A model generated the notes under the pieces. The model ran no database searches and was not told the origin of the DNA. It saw only the letters and a program-made list of their open reading frames with translations. DNA of 20,716 bases from a virus, in IMG/VR virus record IMGVR_UViG_3300021376_000440, positions 1-20,716 of that record. One strand, 5' to 3'. Position numbers and translations under genes: made by a program. Positions 1,201-13,280 of the stretch are shown piece after piece; within the stretch, counting starts at the first letter, position 1, and each line of letters begins with the position of its first letter.

Positions 1201-2268
1201 TTAAAGAGCAATAGCCATAGCTATTGCAAATCCTTTAGTTGCTAAATTACTAGTATCAGTAGCTTCTACAGTTAACCAAGTAGAACCTGTATAATATTTC
1301 AATACATTTGAACTTGTATTAAAATATAAATCACCAGCAGTTAAAGGATCACCATCATTATCAACAGTTGGATCGGATGCCTTTGCACCTAAATAAATAT
1401 CATCAAAATTATCAGCAGCTGCGGCTGCGGCTGCGGCTGAGGCTGCAGAAGCTGATGCACTTGAACTTGCAGCGGATGCCGAAGAACTTGCAGATGAAGC
1501 ACTTGAACTTGCGGCTGCGGCTGAACTTGCGGCTGCAGTTTCTGAAGCACTTGCAGCAGCGGCTGAGGAAGAAGCAGCTGAGGCTGAAGAAGTCGCAGAA
1601 GCAGCATCAACGATTAAAGTATAATAAGCAGTATTTGCATTTGAACTTAACGGCTGCGCTCCTGAAGAAGTGTGAGCCGTATTAATAATATAAATATTAT
1701 TATTGGATGTATCTTTAACTAAATCTCTACCATTATAAGCGGTAGCTGTAGCCCAATTACCTCTGTAAGTTCCAAGCTCTTGTGTTACCGCAATCTCTCC
1801 GTTTGCATCAAAGGCTAGAATTTTATTAGCACGATCTGCAGATCCAACTGTAAATTCAGTTGAGTTAATTGTATTGGTTCTTGATAATTTTATTGATCGA
1901 TCAATCTGCTCTTGTAACTCCTGGCTTATTTGAGTTAACTTATCATAAGCTGTTTCAATACTGTTAGCAGGTAGTGGATCGTTTTCTATTAAATCTAACT
2001 CTTGTGTTTGTGGAGTTGATCTTCTTAAAATAATTGTCTGTGTCGCTGTTGGAATATTACCAGCTGTAAAAGTAACTGTTCCAGAGTTATTGCCAACTCC
2101 TGATACTGTATAATGTGTAGTTTTAGTTTTTACAGTTTCAGTTCCATTAGCTGCACGAATAATAACTTGAATATCGTCATCATCTGCAATTTTAAATGTA
2201 TATGTAAAAGCTGATGTTGAGCCGTTGCCTGTGTAACTATCTTTAATTGTTGTTGTAGAGATTGTCAT
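1201..2268 (-). CDS. T7 gp17-type tail fibre with Ala/Ser-rich shaft (355 aa)
   Basis: Residues 1 to about 135 match the N-terminal, virion-attaching domain of T7 gp17 (YTGNGSTSAFTYTFKI; the VSG...GTVTF stretch; ILRRSTPQTQELDL; a coiled-coil-like QISQELQEQIDRSIKLSR). Residues 168-200 (YRGNWATATAYNGRDLV) look like a small CBM5/12-type carbohydrate-binding module. Residues 221-285 are almost pure Ala/Ser, a flexible or helical shaft. Residues 290-333 (IYLGAKASDP, GDLYFNTSSNVLKYYTGSTW) form a domain common near fibre ends. T7 gp17 is 553 residues, so this fibre is shorter and has no obvious T7-type receptor-binding tip; the downstream small proteins may supply it. The start ATG directly follows the stop of the 929-residue gene. 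Attachment role is strong from family; host receptor is unknown. Confidence 0.93.
   Translation of the reverse strand: MTISTTTIKDSYTGNGSTSAFTYTFKIADDDDIQVIIRAANGTETVKTKTTHYTVSGVGNNSGTVTFTAGNIPTATQTIILRRSTPQTQELDLIENDPLPANSIETAYDKLTQISQELQEQIDRSIKLSRTNTINSTEFTVGSADRANKILAFDANGEIAVTQELGTYRGNWATATAYNGRDLVKDTSNNNIYIINTAHTSSGAQPLSSNANTAYYTLIVDAASATSSASAASSSAAAASASETAAASSAAAASSSASSASSSASAASSSASASAASAAAAAAAADNFDDIYLGAKASDPTVDNDGDPLTAGDLYFNTSSNVLKYYTGSTWLTVEATDTSNLATKGFAIAMAIAL
1208..1227 (-). repeat. Perfect inverted repeat at the 3' end of the fibre gene
   Basis: Eight-base arms GCAATAGC and GCTATTGC flank a four-base loop. The element lies inside the last codons of the fibre gene, which read AIAMAIAL before the stop. 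On the coding strand it is followed by TCTTTAAAAAAAC rather than a clean U-tract, so it is a poor intrinsic terminator. It could protect or space the mRNA end of the fibre cistron. It could equally be a by-product of alternating Ala/Ile codons. Confidence 0.5.
1414..1608 (-). repeat. Ala/Ser-coding repeat tract in the fibre shaft
   Basis: This stretch codes residues 221-285 of the fibre. It is built from degenerate Ala/Ser codons with short repeated units, including consecutive gcggct hexamers near 1421-1438 and a 14-base unit (gcacttgaacttgc) present twice. It is locally GC-richer than its surroundings. Such tracts can change length by slippage in multiples of three, altering fibre shaft length without breaking the frame. 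Confidence 0.8.
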
Positions 2269-5058
2269 TTATTGTGCTTGGTTAATAATATTTTCAAAAT
2301 AATTTTCAGGTAAAACATTACCTTTGTTTTTTTCTAATGCGTCTTTGTCTAACAATTCTGTAATTCTTGGTTTCACGCTGTCTTGTACTCCTGGATCTGC
2401 AAACAATTCATCATTTGCAACTTTTCTCGACATCTCAATTGTTCTTTGAATACGAGCTGCTTTGTCAGCTCTATTTGAATTTTGATATTCTGAATTGTTA
2501 AATAATTGTTCTAATTGTTGTTTAGTAATTTCACCTGATCTTCTTTGTAAAAAAGAAATCTCATCTGTTTCAAGTGGTAAATTTGCAGAATAGGCCCCAA
2601 CTGTAAAAGTTTTAGTTTGTCTAATCGGTGTAACTTCAGGATTTACATTTAAAAATTCTTGACGAATTGGATCTAATTTAATTTCACTTCTAGCAAATGG
2701 ATAACTTTTAGTTTTATTTACAGGATCGCCAAATAAATCATACTTAGTATTTAGATTAGCATCGTATAAATTTCTTTGAACATACTCGTTTAAATCTACT
2801 GCTAACTTTTTATAACCATCACCAGACCAATTGAATATTGTTCCTGGTTTTGCAAATGCTGGAATAAAAGAAGAGGCATAATTAGCACCCCAAACTTTTG
2901 CAAATTTTCCTAAATCGTAATTAGAAAACTTTTGGTAATCATCTATAAATTTTCCAACACCTGAAAGATAAGAACTGTCTGCTAAGTTTTCACCAATAGC
3001 TGCTGTAAATTCTAAAGCATGAGCAAGATAACGCTCAAAGCCTTCACTATCTTCATTTGAAATTGTATGAATAACTTTACCAAGATCTGAAGCCATGGCT
3101 ATACCTTGTGCTATTGGATCTAAGCCAGCGTAATTAAATTGTGTAACTCCATCATTAGTTGGAATACGAACTGTTTTACCTTGAAGGTTTAATGCTTCTT
3201 TAGTTGCACCTTTTCCTTTTGAAGTTAATCCAACATCTGAGCCTGCAGTAAATCCATTATAACCAAGTGTGGCAAAGGTTGCATAGAACATCGCACCTAA
3301 AGCCATCTTTGCTTTTGCCATATCTGCTCTTGCTCCACCTGCTGCAAGATCTTCTCTATATTTTCTTAAAAAAACATAGTTCAATCCAGGTGTTCGCTCT
3401 AAAGCAAAAGTTAAAATATTAGTTGGTGTCTGAATAAATGGTAAATAATAATTAGTTATAAAATCTGCACCAGGTGTTGAACTTTTAAATTTAATTAATA
3501 AATTTCCAAAATCAGAAATTTGATCATTCTTATTTTTTAACTTTGTTTGAAACGTTACATATAGCGCATTTTCATAAGCTGCTTTAGTTGCATTTTCACT
3601 TGGATTTGCAATTCTATTTGCAAGAAAAGTTGAAGCTGTTTCAACATCAGCTTTCAAAGTTCCTTTTTGTATTTCCTGCATTGTTTCTCTATATGCTTGC
3701 GCATAAATTTCTTCTCTAAATGCTAGGTTCTTAAAATAATTATCTGTTACTGATAAAAGTTTTGTTGGTATTCGATCTAATGTTGCAATCTTACCAAGAA
3801 TATCGACAGCTTTGCCAACACCTTCATTTTCAATTCCAAAATTTCTAGCAGTAAATTTTCCAAGATTTCCTGTATCAAACTTTTCACCTTGCAGCTGATT
3901 TGGAATTTCAATATTTTTTATATTTTTAATTTTATCAACGACACTTGAATTAGGTGTATTTAATGCTTTACCAATTAAAGACCACATCTCCTCTCGTGCC
4001 ATCTGCTTTCCGTAAGCAGCAGCCACATCTTCAAATGGTGAAATACCATCTTCAGATCTAAAAAATCTTGATGCAATTTTTCTCTCTAATGCAGTTATAC
4101 CTTGTGTAAGATAATTGCCTGCGGTGTTTTTAATGTGTGATACAGGATTAGATAAAATAACATTTAAAAATGTTTCACCAATTGCCTCAGAAGTAGCTGT
4201 TAATAAACCTTTGCTATTGTCAACCGCTTCTACTCTTTGCGCTCTGTTACCTTTTAAGTATTGCTGCGCTAAAATTCTAGTCTGCTCTTCTCCGCCAAGA
4301 TCTTCTAGTAATCTTATTTTATTTAATTCATCTAAAGTAAGATTAGTAAATTGTGTATCTCGTGGTTTATATTTAAACTGATTTAATGCTCGTGCAGTTT
4401 CAGTTTGTACACCTTTTAATACTCGCTGATATTCACCCATTAATGCAAAATGTTGCTTATAAGCTAATAGTGCATCTGGTCCGCCATTGACGGCAGCTTC
4501 AGCTAATGTGTTTAATTTTTTATGTCCTGCTACAAATATTTCACGAGCCGCTAATATTTGTGCATCATTTAATGTTGAGCCTGGTCTTAGTCTGACAAAG
4601 TTATCAATAAACTTTTGCTGGTCCTGACCTAATAAATCTGCAAGCTCTTGCGTTTCTTTTTTAGTGCGAACGCCACCTTTAGTATTTTGAAATTGTTTAA
4701 AATACTTCTTAGAAATCTGATCTATAAATAAAAGAAAATCACCTTTGTCATTAAATTTATCAATATTAAAATCATCGAGTACAGTTTTAGTAGCACCTGT
4801 ACTTTTTAATTTAACAAATTCGTCAATAGACTTTTGTGCATCCTCATTAGATACTTTAATTTTAATATCTAAATCCTCAGTACCTTTTACATTATCTTTT
4901 AAAGGAGCTTGTTTTTCTCTTACAACTTTTGGCTCACCAATTGGTGTTGCAGGTTGTTTTAAAACTTTCTTGTTTCCTTGTTCGACAATTCCTTTAATTT
5001 TTTTTTGTGCTTCTTGAACTAAATCAATAGCAAATTTTTTGTCAATATTTATAGCCAT
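2269..5058 (-). CDS. Large inner-core/ejection protein, second gp16-position protein (929 aa)
   Basis: This is the last large protein before the fibre gene, the place of T7 gp16, the ejected inner-core protein. The N-terminal 290 residues are charged and helical. The rest contains segments I recognise from phage polyvalent/MuF-associated large proteins: NPVSHIKNTAGN (304-315), YYLPFIQTPTNIL (537-549) followed by ERTPG (554-558), a hydrophobic stretch MALGAMFYATFATLGY (585-600), and a VRIP...AGLDPIAQGIAMASDLGK run (630-661). No transglycosylase motif is evident. I infer a virion protein that enters the cell envelope with the DNA. It follows the 1036-residue gene after a 54-base gap, and its stop abuts the fibre ATG. 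A catalytic function cannot be assigned. Confidence 0.8.
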   Translation of the reverse strand: MAINIDKKFAIDLVQEAQKKIKGIVEQGNKKVLKQPATPIGEPKVVREKQAPLKDNVKGTEDLDIKIKVSNEDAQKSIDEFVKLKSTGATKTVLDDFNIDKFNDKGDFLLFIDQISKKYFKQFQNTKGGVRTKKETQELADLLGQDQQKFIDNFVRLRPGSTLNDAQILAAREIFVAGHKKLNTLAEAAVNGGPDALLAYKQHFALMGEYQRVLKGVQTETARALNQFKYKPRDTQFTNLTLDELNKIRLLEDLGGEEQTRILAQQYLKGNRAQRVEAVDNSKGLLTATSEAIGETFLNVILSNPVSHIKNTAGNYLTQGITALERKIASRFFRSEDGISPFEDVAAAYGKQMAREEMWSLIGKALNTPNSSVVDKIKNIKNIEIPNQLQGEKFDTGNLGKFTARNFGIENEGVGKAVDILGKIATLDRIPTKLLSVTDNYFKNLAFREEIYAQAYRETMQEIQKGTLKADVETASTFLANRIANPSENATKAAYENALYVTFQTKLKNKNDQISDFGNLLIKFKSSTPGADFITNYYLPFIQTPTNILTFALERTPGLNYVFLRKYREDLAAGGARADMAKAKMALGAMFYATFATLGYNGFTAGSDVGLTSKGKGATKEALNLQGKTVRIPTNDGVTQFNYAGLDPIAQGIAMASDLGKVIHTISNEDSEGFERYLAHALEFTAAIGENLADSSYLSGVGKFIDDYQKFSNYDLGKFAKVWGANYASSFIPAFAKPGTIFNWSGDGYKKLAVDLNEYVQRNLYDANLNTKYDLFGDPVNKTKSYPFARSEIKLDPIRQEFLNVNPEVTPIRQTKTFTVGAYSANLPLETDEISFLQRRSGEITKQQLEQLFNNSEYQNSNRADKAARIQRTIEMSRKVANDELFADPGVQDSVKPRITELLDKDALEKNKGNVLPENYFENIINQAQ

Positions 5059-5112: not shown

Positions 5113-8100
5113 CTAATTTTTTGTCGGATTAGAAATAGTATTGTTTTGCATATTATCCGATATAACTTTTGCTGAACCGCCAGCAGTTAAGGCTGGTAAT
5201 ACAATATTAAATAATGGTTGTGATTTCTCTTGGACTGATCGTTTCATTTCAGGAGTTATTTTTAAAACAACATAATTAATACTTTCATTTTGTTCAGGCA
5301 ACTTTACCGCTTCTGTAGTTACAGGTGCATTCCATTTCTTTGCATATTTTTTCATATAAGTTGGAATTGCTTGATCGTATAATTCAAATTTACCTTTACC
5401 TTCTCCAATGAATTGTTTTTCAGATAATTTATAGTTAAAGGTTTTGTTCTTTAATTCTTCCTTTGTGTATCTGTGTAATAAAATATCCTCAGCATCACCT
5501 AATATATCTTGATAATTTTTTGGATAAATTTTATCAATATTATATATATCAGCATCAGTTAATGCTCTTTCTTCTACTACTTTTTTTCCGTTTTTTTGAG
5601 TTAAAATAAAAGTATAAGTTGGATAACCAGCTTCATTATTTTTGTCTGAAACACCAACTTTAACTTCAACATTATCTACAAATCCTCCAGTTTTACCATA
5701 ACGAGCTGCAGCTACTCTGCCTTCTGGAATTGCAATTGCAGAAAAATTATTATCGGCTGCGTATCTGATTAATCTTCTTGTAACTAATTCGTACCAATTA
5801 TTTTTAAAAGGAAAATCTTTTATTGTTTTGTCGTCAATCTCAGCTTTAGCTTTTTGTAAAATTTCTTGTTCAGTTACATTTTCAAATGATTTTTGATTGA
5901 CCTGGTCGATAGTAATATCGTTACTAGCTCTTTCTTTCGCATTTTTTAAAATTAATTTATTTTCTTTTTTAACTGCTTGAAAAATATCAGATTGTAATTC
6001 TTCAACAGATAAAGTTTTTTGACCTGCTATATTTCTTTCTTTAAATCTAACATGAGCAAATTCACCAGGCATATTAAAATGAGCGCTTGTATCTAAACCT
6101 AAATTATCTGCAGTTTGTTTAGTGGTTGCTCCTTGTTGTAATGGAAAGTATTTATCAACATTTTTTCCACCTTTTGATAAAGTAAATATTAGCTCTTTAT
6201 AATCTCTGCCGCCAGGTAATGTATATCTGTCATATTTTGTAGATTGAAAACCACCAACAAATTCCTCTATATCTCTGTAATCAAATTCATATCTATTTTG
6301 AATGTCATCTTCATTTAATCTTATTAAATATTCATTATGAAACTTCTTTAAATTTTCCTCATCAAGAAAAATCTTATCTTCATTCTTCATTACAAGACCT
6401 TGTTTTTTTATTGTGTCTTGCAACATCATGAAATCATCTTCAGAAAATAAAAGTCTTTTTACATCGCTGTAATCAACATCGGAACCATGACTATTTCTAA
6501 AATTATCTACATTTTCTTTTATAAAATTTATAACTAAAGTATCTCTTTCATCGTCAGTTAATCTTTTTTTTGATTTAGCAAAAAAAATATCTCCAATTCT
6601 ATATTGATTTTGTATTTCGCTTCTAAAAAAACTTATAGGCAATATTTCTCCTGAATAAAAAAATTCATCATATAATCCTGCATCTGACATTAACCGCTCT
6701 GTGTTATAGTTATATTTAGTACTATTAGAATTTCTGATTAAATTATATTTAATGTCATCAAAACGAATACCGCCATTTTTAGCTATTGCCTCTTGAATTT
6801 CTTTATAAGCGTAATATGCACTATCTCCTGTATCGGCATTTTGATCTCTAAACCATTCAAGAATTTCATCATCAGATTTTTTTGACTTAAAATTTCTTGG
6901 CAATTGCACTTCATTGACATCAAGTCTGTTGGCTTGAATAAAATCAGAAACTTCTTGTTTTGTTACTGATGGTTTTCCTTTTAAGAAATCATCAAGTCCA
7001 ATCCATTTCATTTCTTGCTGCGTAACGCCTGGAATATTTTTTATTGTTCCTAAAATTTGATCGCCTGGAGCTTTGTTTGGAATTCTCTCAATTGCATTAA
7101 CAACTGCTGATTTAAACACAGGTGCTAGTTCATTAACAACTTTTGGTACCAGCGGATTAGCCATCGCCTCTCCGCTAAACTCCTTTTTTATTGCACCGCC
7201 AATCTGAGTTAATTTATTTCCAAATTGATCGATACTGCTTCTTACATTATCAAGAATTGTTGGTTCTTGATTTTGCATTGTTTCATCTTTTGGATTTAAA
7301 ATTGTTTGATCTGTTATTTCTCCAATAGCAGTTGCAGATCCTGTTGCAACGGCTCCACCTGGTATTGCTTTATTAAATGCTGGTACATTTCTTTTTAAAA
7401 ATAATGCTGTATTAATAATTGGACCAATTAAAGTGGTAAGTCCTGTAGTTTCAAATGCTTGGTAAGCTCGATCAAATATTTCTCCTTCAGGAGTATCTGG
7501 TAAAGCGCCAAAGAACTCTTTCAAACCTTGAATAGATGCACTATCAAAGAAAAAACTACTCTGGCTTTTTCCTTCTGCATTTTTTTCTTTTGGATCAAAG
7601 GCAATACCTGAAGATAAACCTACAGATAAAGGAATTGATATTGTTTTAGGTAATCCTATTTTATCAAGTGTTGAATAGATTGGTGCAAAAAAAGGATAAT
7701 CTTGCGCTACATAACTTAACATATCAGCTCCAAAACTTGGATCTCGACCTTTTGCTGCTTGAAAACCTGTAGAGTAAGTTTGTTTAAAAGTTGTAATTAT
7801 ATTTTTTAATTTTTCGTCAGCATCTTGTGAAAATTTATAAATATCATTATAACGATCGCCTCCTGGTTCTGCTCCAAATAATCTTGAAATCGTTGGAAAC
7901 AAATTAACTCCTAATCTTGCTCCGTTCATTCCACCTAAAGCAATTCGGTATAATGCTTGATCTGGTAGATCGGCAATAAAGTTATAAACGTCTTTTGCAT
8001 AAAGAGGATTTACTTCTTTATTTTTTGGATCATCTTTATTTAATTCTACAATTGCAGCATTTGGATCACGAGTAATACCAATCAGCTCTGCAGGATCTAC

Positions 8101-8223
8101 ATTGTTTTCTTTAAAGAAATTATATTTGCGATCTCCAAATAATTTTTCTTGATCTTTAATTGGTTGATAAAGACTTTCAATAATATTAAAACTGCCAACG
8201 CCTATATTTTTTTCTTCTTCCAT
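5113..8223 (-). CDS. Large inner-core/ejection protein with polyvalent-type C-terminal domain (1036 aa)
   Basis: First of two large proteins at the T7 gp16 position. Residues 1-200 are mixed helical; 260-302 contain hydrophobic Gly/Ala-rich runs (TGLTTLIGPIINTALFL; IPGGAVATGSATAIG). Residues 380-441 (IPGVTQQEMKWIGLDDFL, then VTKQEVSDFIQANRL) and about 665-1005 match a pattern I know from large polyvalent proteins of phages and mobile elements: AHVRFKER (723-730), VEELQSD (740-746), FPFKNNWYELVTRRLIRYAA (804-823), ARYG (840-843), GEGKGKFELYDQAIPTYMKK (940-959) and ITPEMKRSVQ...PLF (989-1005). No known active site can be assigned. Position says it is packaged and ejected; the domain content suggests a role against the host or in the envelope channel, which is inference. 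It starts three bases after the gp15-like stop. Confidence 0.82.
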   Translation of the reverse strand: MEEEKNIGVGSFNIIESLYQPIKDQEKLFGDRKYNFFKENNVDPAELIGITRDPNAAIVELNKDDPKNKEVNPLYAKDVYNFIADLPDQALYRIALGGMNGARLGVNLFPTISRLFGAEPGGDRYNDIYKFSQDADEKLKNIITTFKQTYSTGFQAAKGRDPSFGADMLSYVAQDYPFFAPIYSTLDKIGLPKTISIPLSVGLSSGIAFDPKEKNAEGKSQSSFFFDSASIQGLKEFFGALPDTPEGEIFDRAYQAFETTGLTTLIGPIINTALFLKRNVPAFNKAIPGGAVATGSATAIGEITDQTILNPKDETMQNQEPTILDNVRSSIDQFGNKLTQIGGAIKKEFSGEAMANPLVPKVVNELAPVFKSAVVNAIERIPNKAPGDQILGTIKNIPGVTQQEMKWIGLDDFLKGKPSVTKQEVSDFIQANRLDVNEVQLPRNFKSKKSDDEILEWFRDQNADTGDSAYYAYKEIQEAIAKNGGIRFDDIKYNLIRNSNSTKYNYNTERLMSDAGLYDEFFYSGEILPISFFRSEIQNQYRIGDIFFAKSKKRLTDDERDTLVINFIKENVDNFRNSHGSDVDYSDVKRLLFSEDDFMMLQDTIKKQGLVMKNEDKIFLDEENLKKFHNEYLIRLNEDDIQNRYEFDYRDIEEFVGGFQSTKYDRYTLPGGRDYKELIFTLSKGGKNVDKYFPLQQGATTKQTADNLGLDTSAHFNMPGEFAHVRFKERNIAGQKTLSVEELQSDIFQAVKKENKLILKNAKERASNDITIDQVNQKSFENVTEQEILQKAKAEIDDKTIKDFPFKNNWYELVTRRLIRYAADNNFSAIAIPEGRVAAARYGKTGGFVDNVEVKVGVSDKNNEAGYPTYTFILTQKNGKKVVEERALTDADIYNIDKIYPKNYQDILGDAEDILLHRYTKEELKNKTFNYKLSEKQFIGEGKGKFELYDQAIPTYMKKYAKKWNAPVTTEAVKLPEQNESINYVVLKITPEMKRSVQEKSQPLFNIVLPALTAGGSAKVISDNMQNNTISNPTKN

Positions 8224-8226
8224 AAA

Positions 8227-9897
8227 TTATTGACCAGGTAAAAATGATTTATTTTGTTTTATGCTGCCTTTTGGTTTTGATTTGTCATCTTGTGGTGCTT
8301 GAAAACCAAAGAATAGATTTTTATCTTTACTAATATCTGCAATATCTTCTATTAAATCAAATTGAGAAAGTTCTCTGTCTAAAGTCTGAAAATTAATTTT
8401 ACCTGTTTTATATTCCTCAGCTAAATCTTTTCTTATTTGTTTAAAATTATTTTTATAATTTTCTTGATTAAATTCTTTAAACCTTGAAGCAAATCTTTCT
8501 GGTTGTGGCAGTTGAGTAATTTTAGGTATAAATTTTTGCTCATCTTTAATAGCTGCTACATAAGCATCCTCTGGTTTCATTTTCTCATCATAAACAAAAC
8601 TCTTATAACGCTCTGCTGCTCTGACCGCTCTTGCTTTTGCATCGCCTGCATCTTTATTGGATGCAAATAATACACCTGTTGGATCGCCTACATCCGCTTG
8701 CAATATTTTTAAATAATTTTGGAAATCTCTAAAACCTTTACGATCTTCTTTAGATTTATTTAATATTTCATTAAATTTAACTAAATCATCTACCTTTAAT
8801 CGTTTCATAATTGTTAGATCGGCATTAACGATTTCTTGCAAGGTATCAATTTTATCTACGCTATCAGCAACTGCGATTTGAACATTTAATTCATTTAAAA
8901 ATTGTTCATCAGTTAAAATTTCAGATTTTGTATAAGTTTGCACAAGTCGTGCATATTGAGCTGAATTGATTGAACCTTTATTTCTAAGATCATAAATAAA
9001 ATCTAAATCTGGTCGTGCTTCAATCGCTTCTTTGTCGTTAGGATTTTTATTAGCATTATTGATACGAGTTGAAAGCTCAGCAAAATAAGTATTTTGTAAT
9101 TCTGTCGTTGCTCGAATTTCAAACTTTTCTCGATCAAGTTTTTTAGTGGTTTCTGATACTAATCTTGCTTTTGCATTTTCTAAAATTAATGCAGCTCTTT
9201 TTTCACCAAATATATTTGCAATAGTTTCAGCGTTGTTAATTGTAAGTAAAGGATCAATCTTATTGTTATTTTCAACAATAAATCTTAACGATTGTAAGTT
9301 TTTATCTTTAACAATTTTATCATATTCTTTTGCATCGTAGATACTTCTAAATGCAGGATTTTTTATAAAATTATCAAACTCATCATCACCAAATTTAGCA
9401 TCAATAGCATTAGTAACGGTTGCTCGTTTTATATTTAGTTGTGTTAAATAATTATCATTTGTTATTTCAGTTTTTTTAATACTGTTTTCAGTAATCTTTG
9501 CTGAAAGTTTTGGCAGTAATTCTATTTGTTGTTTAACAAGCCAAGTATTAATTTTATCTTTAGCATTACGACTGATGTCTGGATATTGAGATAAAAAATC
9601 TTTTTCTTTAATTGCATCTCTAAACATTTGCGCACCTTTTAATACATTTGTTTCATTAGATGCTGCAGAATAGATTGTTGAAAGCTCTGGAGATATTTTA
9701 CTTATAATATCTAAATAAGTGCTATTATCTTCTTTATCTTTTTGATCTTCGTAAATCTTAACTAATTGTTTTCCAATATTACCAATTCCTGATGCTTGTT
9801 CAGTTGCAAGTGATAATGGTAAAGTCAAAGATGCTGACTGCGGAACTTTTAATCCTTCAGGCTGCGTTATTACTTCTGAAATTTTAAGAATAGCCAT
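8227..9897 (-). CDS. gp15-like internal virion (core) protein (556 aa)
   Basis: This protein lies between the gp14-like gene and the two large gp16-position proteins, the place of T7 gp15 (747 residues), which forms the inner core and the periplasmic part of the ejection channel. The sequence is almost wholly helical and highly charged, with long Lys/Glu/Asp/Asn stretches, repeated helix-turn segments such as YDLRNKGSINSAQYARL and ELSQFDLIEDI, and no signal peptide, transmembrane segment or catalytic motif. The C-terminus is basic and flexible (DDKSKPKGSIKQNKSFLPGQ). The identification rests on gene order, size and composition rather than a signature motif. It starts two bases after the gp14-like stop and ends three bases before the next ATG. 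Confidence 0.78.
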   Translation of the reverse strand: MAILKISEVITQPEGLKVPQSASLTLPLSLATEQASGIGNIGKQLVKIYEDQKDKEDNSTYLDIISKISPELSTIYSAASNETNVLKGAQMFRDAIKEKDFLSQYPDISRNAKDKINTWLVKQQIELLPKLSAKITENSIKKTEITNDNYLTQLNIKRATVTNAIDAKFGDDEFDNFIKNPAFRSIYDAKEYDKIVKDKNLQSLRFIVENNNKIDPLLTINNAETIANIFGEKRAALILENAKARLVSETTKKLDREKFEIRATTELQNTYFAELSTRINNANKNPNDKEAIEARPDLDFIYDLRNKGSINSAQYARLVQTYTKSEILTDEQFLNELNVQIAVADSVDKIDTLQEIVNADLTIMKRLKVDDLVKFNEILNKSKEDRKGFRDFQNYLKILQADVGDPTGVLFASNKDAGDAKARAVRAAERYKSFVYDEKMKPEDAYVAAIKDEQKFIPKITQLPQPERFASRFKEFNQENYKNNFKQIRKDLAEEYKTGKINFQTLDRELSQFDLIEDIADISKDKNLFFGFQAPQDDKSKPKGSIKQNKSFLPGQ

Positions 9898-9899
9898 AA

Positions 9900-10376
9900 T
9901 TAAGTTCTTTTAGTGTATTTGTCGTAAGCACCGTAAGCCATATTGGCATCGCTTAATAAACTACCAACGGCTGCAATATATTGACTTCGTGCTGTAAGAT
10001 TAGCTTTAAACAATTCACCTTCTCCTTGTGAACGCAACATGATTGCTTCGTTTTGGATGTTTTCACTTTCAGTAATTGCATTAAATTCTGCTGTTGCAAT
10101 ATTAAATGCTTGGATATTTTTATTCTCTAAACCCACTAAATAAGGAGTGGTACCAGATCTAAATTCTGCACCTGATTTTAAAGCGTTAACTAAAAATTGT
10201 GAATATTCAGCTTCTTGTTTTCTTACAATTTGTGGTCTGGTAACTACGTTAAATATTTGTCGTCTTTGTTCTTTTTGTTTTTCTTTAAGCGCTGCTTGTT
10301 GTTGATAAACTTTATTATTATAATTACCAATTGCTCTAGCACTTTCAGCTGCTGCGATATTTCCTAAAAAACTCAT
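9900..10376 (-). CDS. gp14-like internal virion protein (158 aa)
   Basis: A 158-residue protein with the profile of T7 gp14 (196 residues), the ejected protein that makes the outer-membrane part of the DNA channel. The N-terminus MSFLGNIAAAESARAIGNYN is small-residue-rich and is followed by a long helix of Gln, Lys, Glu and Ala (NKVYQQQAALKEKQKEQRRQ). The C-terminal half again has helices with small residues (AVGSLLSDANMAYGAYDKY). Its ATG overlaps the stop of the gp13-position gene (ATGA), so translation is coupled. Family assignment rests on position plus this N-terminal pattern; no enzymatic role is expected. Confidence 0.8.
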   Translation of the reverse strand: MSFLGNIAAAESARAIGNYNNKVYQQQAALKEKQKEQRRQIFNVVTRPQIVRKQEAEYSQFLVNALKSGAEFRSGTTPYLVGLENKNIQAFNIATAEFNAITESENIQNEAIMLRSQGEGELFKANLTARSQYIAAVGSLLSDANMAYGAYDKYTKRT

Positions 10377-10828
10377 ATTTTATATATTTTAGCCATGCGG
10401 TAGTAGTTAGTTTTATCTGGACCGTATTGCACCATTACTCCTTCTTCTTGAAGTCCAAGCCATTTTGCAAAACGTATGCCAAGTTTAAAATCCTCTTTTA
10501 CTGCTGTCTGTAATCTCCAGATTTTATTGTTAATACAAAGCATATCCATTCTACGTTTAACAAGAATGGCAGCTCTAATTTTGTGTTTAAATATTTCCTT
10601 ACTTGATAATACCCAGCCTTCCGCACAACCTTGCCAGAGCGGATAAATTCCACCTGATACAATTGGCTGCTCATTGGCTAGTAAAGTAAATGAAAGTCCT
10701 GGTGCAGCAATATCAATTCTGTTTTCGTAATTTTCTGCATCCTGATCCATTAACGGATCATTCATTCCGTAATTTATAATTTCCGTTCCATGTGTAGAAC
10801 GATACGGAATAACTTTATAATTAACCAT
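10373..10828 (-). CDS. gp13-position protein, GNAT acetyltransferase-like (151 aa)
   Basis: It occupies the slot of T7 gp13 (138 residues), a protein needed for virion maturation. The sequence has the outline of the gp13/GNAT-like family: a beta strand and helix first, then a central GLSFTLLANEQPIVSGGIYPLWQG segment (44-67 region) followed by EGWVLSSKEI, and a conserved-looking LGLQEEGVMVQYGPD near the end (125-139), as expected for an acetyltransferase-type fold. A clear acetyl-CoA loop (Q/RxxGxG/A) is not visible, so activity is doubtful. Its start overlaps the end of the gp12-like gene by eight bases (ATGGTTAA) and its stop overlaps the gp14-like start, indicating tightly coupled expression. 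Confidence 0.8.
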   Translation of the reverse strand: MVNYKVIPYRSTHGTEIINYGMNDPLMDQDAENYENRIDIAAPGLSFTLLANEQPIVSGGIYPLWQGCAEGWVLSSKEIFKHKIRAAILVKRRMDMLCINNKIWRLQTAVKEDFKLGIRFAKWLGLQEEGVMVQYGPDKTNYYRMAKIYKI

Positions 10829-13280
10829 CAGATGTTACAACGGTTGGATAAATTGCAAGAACTGAACAAGGTAAAGCCTGTTCTTGTTTTACAAAAATAA
10901 ATCCATCAGTATTGTAATCATCTCTAAATTCTATTTCCTTATCACCTGCTAAAAAAGTTGAAACAGGAGTGTCCATTGGATCCGATGAACTTCTAAAAGG
11001 TATAGTTTCTAAATTATCTAAATCTGGTCCAACTTTAACTCCAACAGTTTCAAATAATCTAAGAACAACTTTTGAAATTCGTTTAGTTTTACCTTGTGAA
11101 GTTCCTTCTTCAGCACCTCCTTCAATTCGCATTGTCTGAAGTACACTTGAATAATTTAAACCTACAACTGCTTTATTTATATATCGATCTAAACTTATAG
11201 CACCTGATGATACAGTTTTATTAGAGTGCGTTGCACCATCTGCCAGGATGCCAACAGATTGTGCTTCAAGATGTGATAATCCTGATAATGAATTTACAAC
11301 TTGTTTTACAGTAGCACCTGTTGTGTGCGCTGCTGCAGCGGTACTGTTAAATCCTCTTGTGCAGCCTGTTAAAGTATTTGTCGATTTACCTGAATAAGAA
11401 ATACGCTCACTATCAATTAAAATAGTTCCTGTTGCAGTAAATGAACTAGCATCGGTTAATGTAATTGAAGCTGTTGAATTATTAATACTGCCATTTAATG
11501 TAGTAGATGGTCCTGTATAAGTTAAAAAACTATCTAAAAATTTAAAGTCTGTAGAGTTCGTTTCATCAAAATCAAAATCAGAAAAACATTCAATATATCT
11601 TTTAGTTGATCCATTAATGGTGCGCTTAACAATAATCCATAATTCATCTTCATCTAAAGTTCCTGAAATAGATGCAATACTTTCAACAATACCAAATTGA
11701 CTTGTTCCAAAAGAACCGCCTAATTTATGTTTATGCCAAGCAACTACATTTTCAGATCTTTGATAAGTAAGACCAATTAAAATTCCATCATCTCGAACAG
11801 CCCACAAAATACTTGAAGGCTCTTGCTGATAAGTAAATTCATTTATTCCGCTATCAGTTACAGCATCATTTAAAATACAAAGATCAGGTGCGACATAGCC
11901 GTCACTATCGAAATTGTATGCTAACTCTCTAAATTTTCTTTTTGCTTTTTGTAAAAAGATAACTGCATTACCAACAGGTAAAGCATCGACATCGGCAGTT
12001 CCAAATGAACTTTGTTTTTTAATTGTTAAGTTTGTTGGTGTAACTGCAGCATCCGTTCCATCTGCGGTTACTGTAAATTCTCCGCCTGTGGTTCCTATAA
12101 TTAATGTTCGTTGTGCTTTTAAATATCGAACTCTATTTACCTGATTAGAAGCGATTGTATAAATCATCGCATCATCTGCTAAAGTTCCTGCTGCAAAGTT
12201 TTCGTAATCGCCAGATTTTGAAAAATAAATTGTTTGTGGCTCTGTGTTTGTACCAGCAAAAACTAATCGTTGTTCAAAAAAAGATACACAAGCAGGATGA
12301 CCTGAAAAATCAGAAAAGGCTCCAAGTTTCCATTTAGTCGTTGCAATATTTTCTGAACTATACACAAAAGCTAAAGTTCTGTGAGTTGCAGCGGTTGTTG
12401 AGCTAGTTCCTCTAGTACAGCCTGTAAGACTTCTTGTAGCTGCATCTTTGCCTGTGTAGGTAATTAATTCATCATCAATTCTAACTGTACCTGTTGTTGC
12501 GTAATCATCAATTTTATCGACAACAATTGTGGTATCTGATGATGAAATTTCCTTTGAAAGTTTAGATGGATTAACTTTTGGTGCTAATGTTTCAAGTACA
12601 TCAGCGGTTACCACAGTTGTTGAAGTTCGTGCAGTTATTTCTGCATATCCTAATCCATAACCAATACTAACTAATCTACCCACATCAGATGTTTGAAAAC
12701 CTGTATTATTATTAATTCCTGTTACAGCTGATGCAGTAATAGTTATCCCATTTCCTGAAATCGCACTTGCACTTAAAGTCGTTGTTTCAGTATTTTCATC
12801 TAAAAATGGACCGTAAGTAAAAAGTAATTCATCTAAACTCCAATTGGTATGACCTGTTCTTGATAATTTTCGAACTTCGTGATTTGGATGACAAATGTAT
12901 AAAACGTCTGCTGATTGAGCAAATTTAATTTCAAATAATTCAGCCGTTAAATAAGGTGATGCAATTTCATAAGCAGATCCACTTGATAAAATTTGACCTT
13001 TGTCTTTATAAAAACGAATGTACTGATTACCGAATTCTAAAATATAAGTTTGTGTTGTTGAAAACTCAAACGGTATTAATCTTGTTTTATTAGCAGAAGT
13101 TTTAACTTCACTAATAAATTGTGTACCTACTCTTCTAGTCGCTGCTCCTTGTGGATGGACTAAAAAATTTTCTAAAGTTTTGCAGCCTGTTCTATATTTA
13201 TCAAAATCAGTTCTACCATCTAGTTTAGAGCCAAGCTCACCAGATACAAAAGAAGTAAGCGCTAATGTTGTTCGAGGCAT
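10821..13280 (-). CDS. T7 gp12-type tail tubular protein B / nozzle (819 aa)
   Basis: The N-terminus (SFVSGELGSKLDGRTDFDKYRTGCKTLENFLVHPQGAATRRVGTQFI) is the typical start of the podoviral gp12 nozzle family, and length is close to T7 gp12 (794). Other family segments include RLIPFEFSTTQTYILEFG (67-84), HPACVSFFEQRLVFAGT (328-344), PQTIYFSKSGDYENF (348-362) and RTLIIGTTGGEFTV (391-404). Two copies of a small beta module lie at residues 246-306 and 602-660. The protein should form the hexameric nozzle below the gp11-type ring and bind fibres. It follows the gp11-like stop with no gap, and its end overlaps the gp13-position start. Confidence 0.95.
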   Translation of the reverse strand: MPRTTLALTSFVSGELGSKLDGRTDFDKYRTGCKTLENFLVHPQGAATRRVGTQFISEVKTSANKTRLIPFEFSTTQTYILEFGNQYIRFYKDKGQILSSGSAYEIASPYLTAELFEIKFAQSADVLYICHPNHEVRKLSRTGHTNWSLDELLFTYGPFLDENTETTTLSASAISGNGITITASAVTGINNNTGFQTSDVGRLVSIGYGLGYAEITARTSTTVVTADVLETLAPKVNPSKLSKEISSSDTTIVVDKIDDYATTGTVRIDDELITYTGKDAATRSLTGCTRGTSSTTAATHRTLAFVYSSENIATTKWKLGAFSDFSGHPACVSFFEQRLVFAGTNTEPQTIYFSKSGDYENFAAGTLADDAMIYTIASNQVNRVRYLKAQRTLIIGTTGGEFTVTADGTDAAVTPTNLTIKKQSSFGTADVDALPVGNAVIFLQKAKRKFRELAYNFDSDGYVAPDLCILNDAVTDSGINEFTYQQEPSSILWAVRDDGILIGLTYQRSENVVAWHKHKLGGSFGTSQFGIVESIASISGTLDEDELWIIVKRTINGSTKRYIECFSDFDFDETNSTDFKFLDSFLTYTGPSTTLNGSINNSTASITLTDASSFTATGTILIDSERISYSGKSTNTLTGCTRGFNSTAAAAHTTGATVKQVVNSLSGLSHLEAQSVGILADGATHSNKTVSSGAISLDRYINKAVVGLNYSSVLQTMRIEGGAEEGTSQGKTKRISKVVLRLFETVGVKVGPDLDNLETIPFRSSSDPMDTPVSTFLAGDKEIEFRDDYNTDGFIFVKQEQALPCSVLAIYPTVVTSDG
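11301..11477 (-). repeat. Second copy of the ID-E-I-YSG/LTGCTRG module in the nozzle protein
   Basis: Codes residues 602-660 of the gp12-like protein. The core reads GTILIDSERISYSGK, then TLTGCTRGFNSTAAAAH. It pairs with the copy at 12363-12545 (GTVRIDDELITYTGK, SLTGCTRGTSSTTAATH). The copies are clearly similar at protein level but diverged in DNA, so the duplication is old or each copy was acquired separately. Confidence 0.85.
12363..12545 (-). repeat. First copy of the ID-E-I-YTG/LTGCTRG module in the nozzle protein
   Basis: Codes residues 246-306 of the gp12-like protein. Shared features with the second copy are a hydrophobic strand, T-G-T-x-x-I-D, E-x-I-x-Y-x-G-K, L-T-G-C-T-R-G and A-A-x-H. 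Modules of this kind are seen in many phage structural proteins, as I recall, where they look like small surface-exposed beta domains. Confidence 0.85.

Follow-up and report, generated by a model that had tools for sequence, protein, structure and literature searches.

In phages, polyvalent proteins are encoded near virion genes, and RimI-like GNATs occur in proteins of this kind (Iyer et al., 2017, PMC5512222). In the T7-like phage Peru-2 the core proteins are virion components that are released ahead of the genome, and virion preparations can contain a further enzyme, a lipase, in abundance (PMC13320782, preprint). Here we analyse a gene from a 20.7-kb viral fragment (the window, meaning the whole stretch of DNA that was analysed), the host of which is an ocean bacterium of the SAR11 type. 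The closest named relative of its 1036-aa product is found in Pelagibacter phage HTVC028P, a phage assigned to the proposed Ubiqueviridae (PMC10504331).

Position of the gene in the ejection-core cluster

The genes of the window run on the minus strand in the order terminase, portal, capsid, tail tubular proteins A and B, core and tail fibre. From tail tubular protein B onwards they are:

10821-13280, minus strand: tail tubular protein B, the anchor of the core cluster, 819 aa (phrog_376, E 1.6e-211)
10373-10828, minus strand: gp13-position protein, 151 aa (phrog_4177 and phrog_308 'internal virion protein')
9900-10376, minus strand: gp14-position internal virion protein, 158 aa (phrog_418, E 3.5e-6)
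8227-9897, minus strand: gp15-position protein, 556 aa (assigned by position and synteny only)
5113-8223, minus strand: module protein, 1036 aa, with its ATG at 8223 and stop at 5113-5115 (translation; orthologues in HTVC028P, gp34, and in IMG/VR contigs)
2269-5058, minus strand: gp16 homologue (internal virion protein D type), 929 aa (profile alignment; HTVC028P homologue annotated 'putative internal virion protein')
1201-2268, minus strand: tail fibre or tail-fibre-like protein (gene order)

It can be seen that the gene for the 1036-aa protein, hereafter the module protein, lies inside a cluster composed of tail tubular protein B, the gp13-, gp14- and gp15-position genes, the module gene itself and gp16. 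The same core order is annotated in HTVC028P, where gp34 is the orthologue (31% identity over its length, with identical gene order), and it recurs in 49 loci, not all of which are independent. Core synteny was also seen at L204, with phrog_418 and phrog_6651 neighbours, and the module homologue there is compact, at 731 aa.

The initial annotation had placed the protein at the gp16 position of a T7-type ejection core and had read the domain as built into gp16. The position was approximately right, in that the gene is inside the core cluster, but gp16 itself is the adjacent 929-aa gene. A profile of the 929-aa family aligned over nearly the whole length with the internal virion protein D of HTVC011P (residues 271-1145, E 1.7e-61) and that of CRP-114 (residues 425-1265, E 5.5e-89), and because of these alignments we identify the 929-aa gene (2269-5058) as the gp16 homologue, N-terminally shortened by the first ~270-425 residues of gp16. 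Reading this neighbour as LPD38 was unsupported (profile probability 0.5%). We rejected the 1036-aa protein as a gp16 homologue, since the gp16 profile matches its neighbour instead, and the similarity of its N-terminal profile to the gp16 proteins of HTVC011P and CRP-114 was insignificant. An SLT/lysozyme identity was rejected on the Pfam scan; when the alternative of a gp16 with a transglycosylase was checked, neither an SLT match nor significant gp16 similarity was found in the protein. With the neighbour recognised as gp16, the gene for the module protein is therefore a separate one, added to the core cluster between the gp15-position gene and gp16, the products of which probably guide the phage DNA into the host cell. 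A literature search returned no proteomics placing the 1036-aa protein in a virion, and nothing relevant on the module motif strings or on 'internal virion protein' combined with 'polyvalent protein'.

Other genes of the cluster have features of their own. The HTVC028P homologue of the 151-aa gp13-position protein is annotated as a putative acetyltransferase. Tail tubular protein B carries two similar inserts (~residues 238-300 and 587-666) matching PHROGs of tail fibre, virion structural and baseplate wedge proteins, and its HTVC028P homologue is shorter than the 819 aa of the window protein. The tail-fibre-like protein (1201-2268, minus strand) includes a long low-complexity region rich in Ala and Ser; its CBM_5_12 match was weak (E 0.002) and fell below the cut-off. 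Relatives of the window lineage may be temperate, because the nearest isolate, HTVC028P (L001 26225-29047), has integrase and XRE-type repressor genes.

The module as one split domain and its distribution

Translation of window positions 5113-8223 on the minus strand gives an intact ORF of 1036 aa. All the segments quoted in the initial annotation are present in it: IPGVTQQEMKWIGLDDFL begins at residue 397, AHVRFKER at residue 723, VEELQSD at 740, WYELVTRRLIRYAA at 810, GEGKGKFELYDQAIP at 940, ITPEMKRSVQ at 989 and PLF at 1003, and residues 380-1005 correspond exactly to 5209-7086 of the minus strand. When 23 orthologues from viral contigs were aligned these segments proved to be the best-conserved parts of the family, indicating that they are not chance patterns. 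The protein contains one recognisable module in addition to an N-terminal region, and is divided as follows:

7153-8223, minus strand: N-terminal region, residues 1-357; helical and specific to pelagiphages, modelled with low confidence, evolving faster than the module
6889-7152, minus strand: module part 1, residues 358-445 (~88 residues); helices and strand 1 (434-442) of the predicted GNAT-like sheet
6262-6888, minus strand: insert, residues 446-654; predicted to be folded, with neither sequence nor length constant
5194-6261, minus strand: module part 2, residues 655-1010 (~350 residues); the remaining GNAT-like strands and most of the invariant polar residues
5986-6003, minus strand: EELQSD, residues 741-746, at the end of strand 4; E742, Q744, S745 and D746 invariant in 89/89 copies
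5377-5379, minus strand: Y949, in the helix before strand 6 (the GNAT alpha-4 position); invariant in 89/89 copies
5116-5193, minus strand: C-terminal tail, residues 1011-1036; its last residues are the NNxIS motif conserved in pelagiphage orthologues (orthologue alignment)

Identity to the relative L004 is 89% over residues 358-445 and 75% over residues 655-1010, compared with 27% for the insert and 43% for the N-terminus. E404, L414, N432 and E438 are near-invariant in module part 1. The insert after strand 1 is modelled with pLDDT mostly of 75-94, yet shows 18-49% identity among close relatives, as if it might set target specificity; we make no claim of positive selection on it, substitutions being near saturation. 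NNxIS ends the last 26 residues of the protein in nearly all pelagiphage orthologues, and is a possible signal for core assembly or ejection.

The conserved segments had initially been taken for two separate domains. This did not stand, as the N-terminal and C-terminal segments share one ORF in 206 of the 221 ORFs that have the C-terminal segment (a count in which some contigs are included twice), with a gap between them of up to ~300 residues, and both belong to a single predicted fold. They travel together because strand 1 of the predicted GNAT-like sheet lies in the N-terminal segment. We conclude that the two segments are one domain with a variable insert between them.

Searches with the conserved segments found the module in more than 300 viral-contig stretches, far outside the pelagiphages. 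By contrast, matches were present in only 3 of 299 Pseudomonadota genomes, one of them a Pelagibacteraceae genome with a copy that was already known, and the module is therefore mainly a domain of mobile elements. After redundancy filtering, 88 diverse copies were aligned with that of the window (alignment A5, 89 copies in total). Thirteen columns of A5 are invariant: Y675, E677, H715, R726, L738, E742, Q744, S745, D746, P805, W810, Y949 and K962.

Scans of the 1036-aa protein against Pfam, PHROGs, NCBIfam and PDB sequences gave no match, and the same scans of its orthologues returned nothing significant. The profile match to known polyvalent-associated domains that the initial annotation had led us to look for was not obtained: no Pfam LPD, ART or PBECR model matched the protein (0 Pfam families), and no LPD was found among the 23 orthologues. 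The further proposal, that the pattern is common to large polyvalent proteins of phages and conjugative elements, was borne out by the module itself, which shares chains with several polyvalent domains in mobile elements. On Pseudomonas plasmid p382 a protein of 5000 aa, annotated 'LPD23 domain-containing protein', contains the two halves of the module together with LPD23 and 12 ART-PolyVal stretches; a 3217-aa protein (L217) has ddrB-ParB, PBECR1 and LPD38 around it; and a protein of Dolichospermum phage Dfl-JY45 combines ART-PolyVal with two module copies. A 3207-aa protein of another phage (L213) carries towards its N-terminus an SLT transglycosylase that matches phrog_342 'internal virion protein with endolysin domain'; the module comes next, and a gp16-type domain (phrog_6651) follows it. 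This was the only polypeptide found to unite module, transglycosylase and gp16 domain. All four proteins fit the definition of polyvalent proteins (PMC5512222), and in none of them does a Pfam model cover the module. The possibility that the module is itself an ADP-ribosyltransferase was set aside, since ART-PolyVal occupies other parts of the p382 protein.

Plasmid p382 (L271, L272) looks conjugative on account of its DotD/TraH, TrbM/KikA, TraX and T2SS/T4P-type genes, although MOB-suite types it as non-mobilizable. It also encodes Pycsar and AbiJ-type defence genes and a second very large protein, with an N-6 DNA methylase (record 113591-120643). In Pseudoalteromonas phage PH1 a 1299-aa protein (L269 4668-8564) starts directly with a divergent module copy, and its gene adjoins one labelled TerL, a label that may be wrong.

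These results indicate that the module is a real and previously undefined domain, shared by descent between polyvalent proteins and the pelagiphage ejection core.

Predicted fold, candidate active site and proposed role

The structure prediction called for in the initial annotation gave a confident model: AlphaFold2 run on A5 for residues 358-1012 reached a pLDDT of 87.7 and a pTM of 0.78. A second prediction, of the whole protein and from another alignment, had a pLDDT of 62 overall and a poor N-terminus, and gave an identical order of elements for the module region. With VIA-align 2, all 50 best listed PDB entries had the GNAT fold for each of the two models, with best Z scores of 9.9 and 8.9 and scores of 7.0 and 6.3 at rank 50. 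These entries include NatD, GCN5, the ICL2 C-terminal domain, Elp3, KacT, p300, EsaI and Mom, which we take to be GNAT folds. There was no ART among the best 50 rows listed, which by itself does not exclude an ART. The rows span residues ~434-990, from strand 1 (434-442) in the N-terminal segment to the last strand near residue 988, and the best alignment covers 138 residues with an rmsd of 3.1 at a Z of up to 9.9. VIA-align 2 re-ranked the candidates that Foldseek had supplied, and its Z scores of 9-10 exceed only moderately the values of 7-8 that are usual for unmatched models; Foldseek against the PDB gave no match with E < 0.001, the best being NatD at 0.16. Taking DSSP order and VIA together, the models have the arrangement beta1-alpha-alpha-beta2-4-alpha3-beta5-alpha4-beta6-7.

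When GNAT ORFs from genomes of the host order were aligned and their profile compared with that of the module by hhalign, the match fell short of significance (P 0.027, probability 2%). It did outrank all 31 decoy families, and the region aligned was that of helix 3 - strand 5, as expected. The canonical CoA P-loop, [QR]xxGx[GA] after strand 4, occurs in only 17 of the 89 copies and is not found in the window protein; the invariant QSD stands where it would be expected. Because the P-loop is mostly missing and the profile comparison is not significant, we call the module GNAT-like in predicted fold rather than a proven GNAT. A cluster that in the model resembles an active site is formed by the strictly conserved polar residues Y675, E677, H715, R726, E742, Q744, S745 and D746, together with Y949, which lies on the helix preceding strand 6. 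The loop GxGKxxLYD, in front of strand 6, is conserved as well.

Our main reading, to which we assign a probability of about 0.5, is that the module protein belongs to the internal core as an extra component, is ejected with the DNA and carries as its payload a split GNAT-like transferase domain (residues 358-1010). It would be a product of the late operon, in which its gene stands between those for the gp15-position protein and gp16, and would probably be packed in the head, in or beside the core next to the portal. Ejection into the host with the gp14-gp16-type core proteins, ahead of or together with the DNA, would then allow the module to act early, most likely as a transferase of an acyl or aminoacyl-type group to a host or genome-associated target. 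Other polyvalent-protein domains are thought to act on such targets early in infection. By analogy, the observations on Peru-2 lend credibility, if not proof, to ejection of an enzyme in this way, and a host-directed enzyme effector is plausible. More tentatively, the module may represent a widespread family of split GNAT-like enzymes with QSD for the P-loop, co-delivered with DNA by phages and conjugative plasmids, which in pelagiphages has become a stand-alone ejection-core protein carrying a host-modifying enzyme, possibly of new chemistry.

The loss of the canonical P-loop from most copies would also suit a non-catalytic module, that is, a structural or DNA- or protein-binding part (serving for example in packaging, in unfolding or as a channel scaffold) that is inactive but still GNAT-like in fold. 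Its location inside the internal-core cluster and its constancy while partner domains vary widely are consistent with this. However, the polar residues (H, R, E, Q, S, D, Y and K) that stay invariant across 89 copies are numerous and look catalytic, and the occurrence of the module on a conjugative-type plasmid argues against a virion-packaging tag alone; we regard a non-catalytic module as rather unlikely. If the module is a GNAT-like enzyme, its chemistry or donor might be a different one (aminoacyl-tRNA, nucleotide or amino-acid transfer, or hydrolysis), with the QSD loop serving for the CoA P-loop. The presence of QSD at this site in all copies, the GxGKxxLYD loop, and the AHL synthase EsaI and phage Mu Mom among the structural neighbours point this way, but the best neighbours are mostly ordinary acetyl-CoA enzymes and the donor would be conjectural, making this an unlikely reading. 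That the 1036-aa protein is instead the N-terminal half of a split gp16, a degenerate transglycosylase for peptidoglycan opening, might be thought to follow from the residues missing from the 929-aa neighbour and from the single chain of L213, but is highly improbable given that the protein has no SLT match and insignificant N-terminal similarity to gp16, that SLT (80-182) and module (about 1783-2220) are separate regions in L213, and that the predicted fold is GNAT-like, not lysozyme-like.

Under the main reading, of an ejected core protein with a transferase payload, the locus offers a testable case of phages of the very abundant SAR11 bacteria injecting an enzyme along with their DNA.

Comparison with known systems

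None of the libraries scanned here defines the module family, yet it occurs in the viral contigs and plasmid-borne polyvalent proteins described above, and a fold and candidate active site can now be proposed for it. Even the HTVC028P orthologue, gp34, is annotated only as a hypothetical protein. PHROG 7348 'endolysin' (2564 aa) includes a region (~1610-2100) to which the module copies of L080, L082, L204, L213 and L217 match, whereas the window protein falls short of a match to this model; the 'endolysin' label presumably derives from another domain of that giant.

The predicted topology follows the GNAT order seen in NatD, GCN5, the ICL2 C-terminal domain, Elp3 and KacT. In contrast to that superfamily, the module has large inserts, of ~210 residues after strand 1 and another after strand 5, most copies lack the canonical P-loop, and the sequence-profile comparison gave no significant match. 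The GNATs of polyvalent proteins are RimI-like as the paper describes them (PMC5512222), whereas the module matches no Pfam GNAT model. Unlike T7 gp16 (internal virion protein D), the 1036-aa protein has neither significant similarity to that protein nor a transglycosylase domain, but a true gp16 homologue adjoins its gene.

The window protein differs from polyvalent proteins (PMC5512222) in being only about 1,000 residues long, in having no Pfam or PHROG domain and in being encoded by a separate gene in a T7-type core. However, the same two-part module occurs in them with ART-PolyVal, LPD23, LPD38, PBECR1, ddrB-ParB and SLT, and the window gene, like the phage versions, lies near virion genes. 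Polyvalent effectors and the T7-type ejection core, which were previously held apart, are linked by a module that is fused to a gp16 domain in L213 and stands beside gp16 in the pelagiphages.
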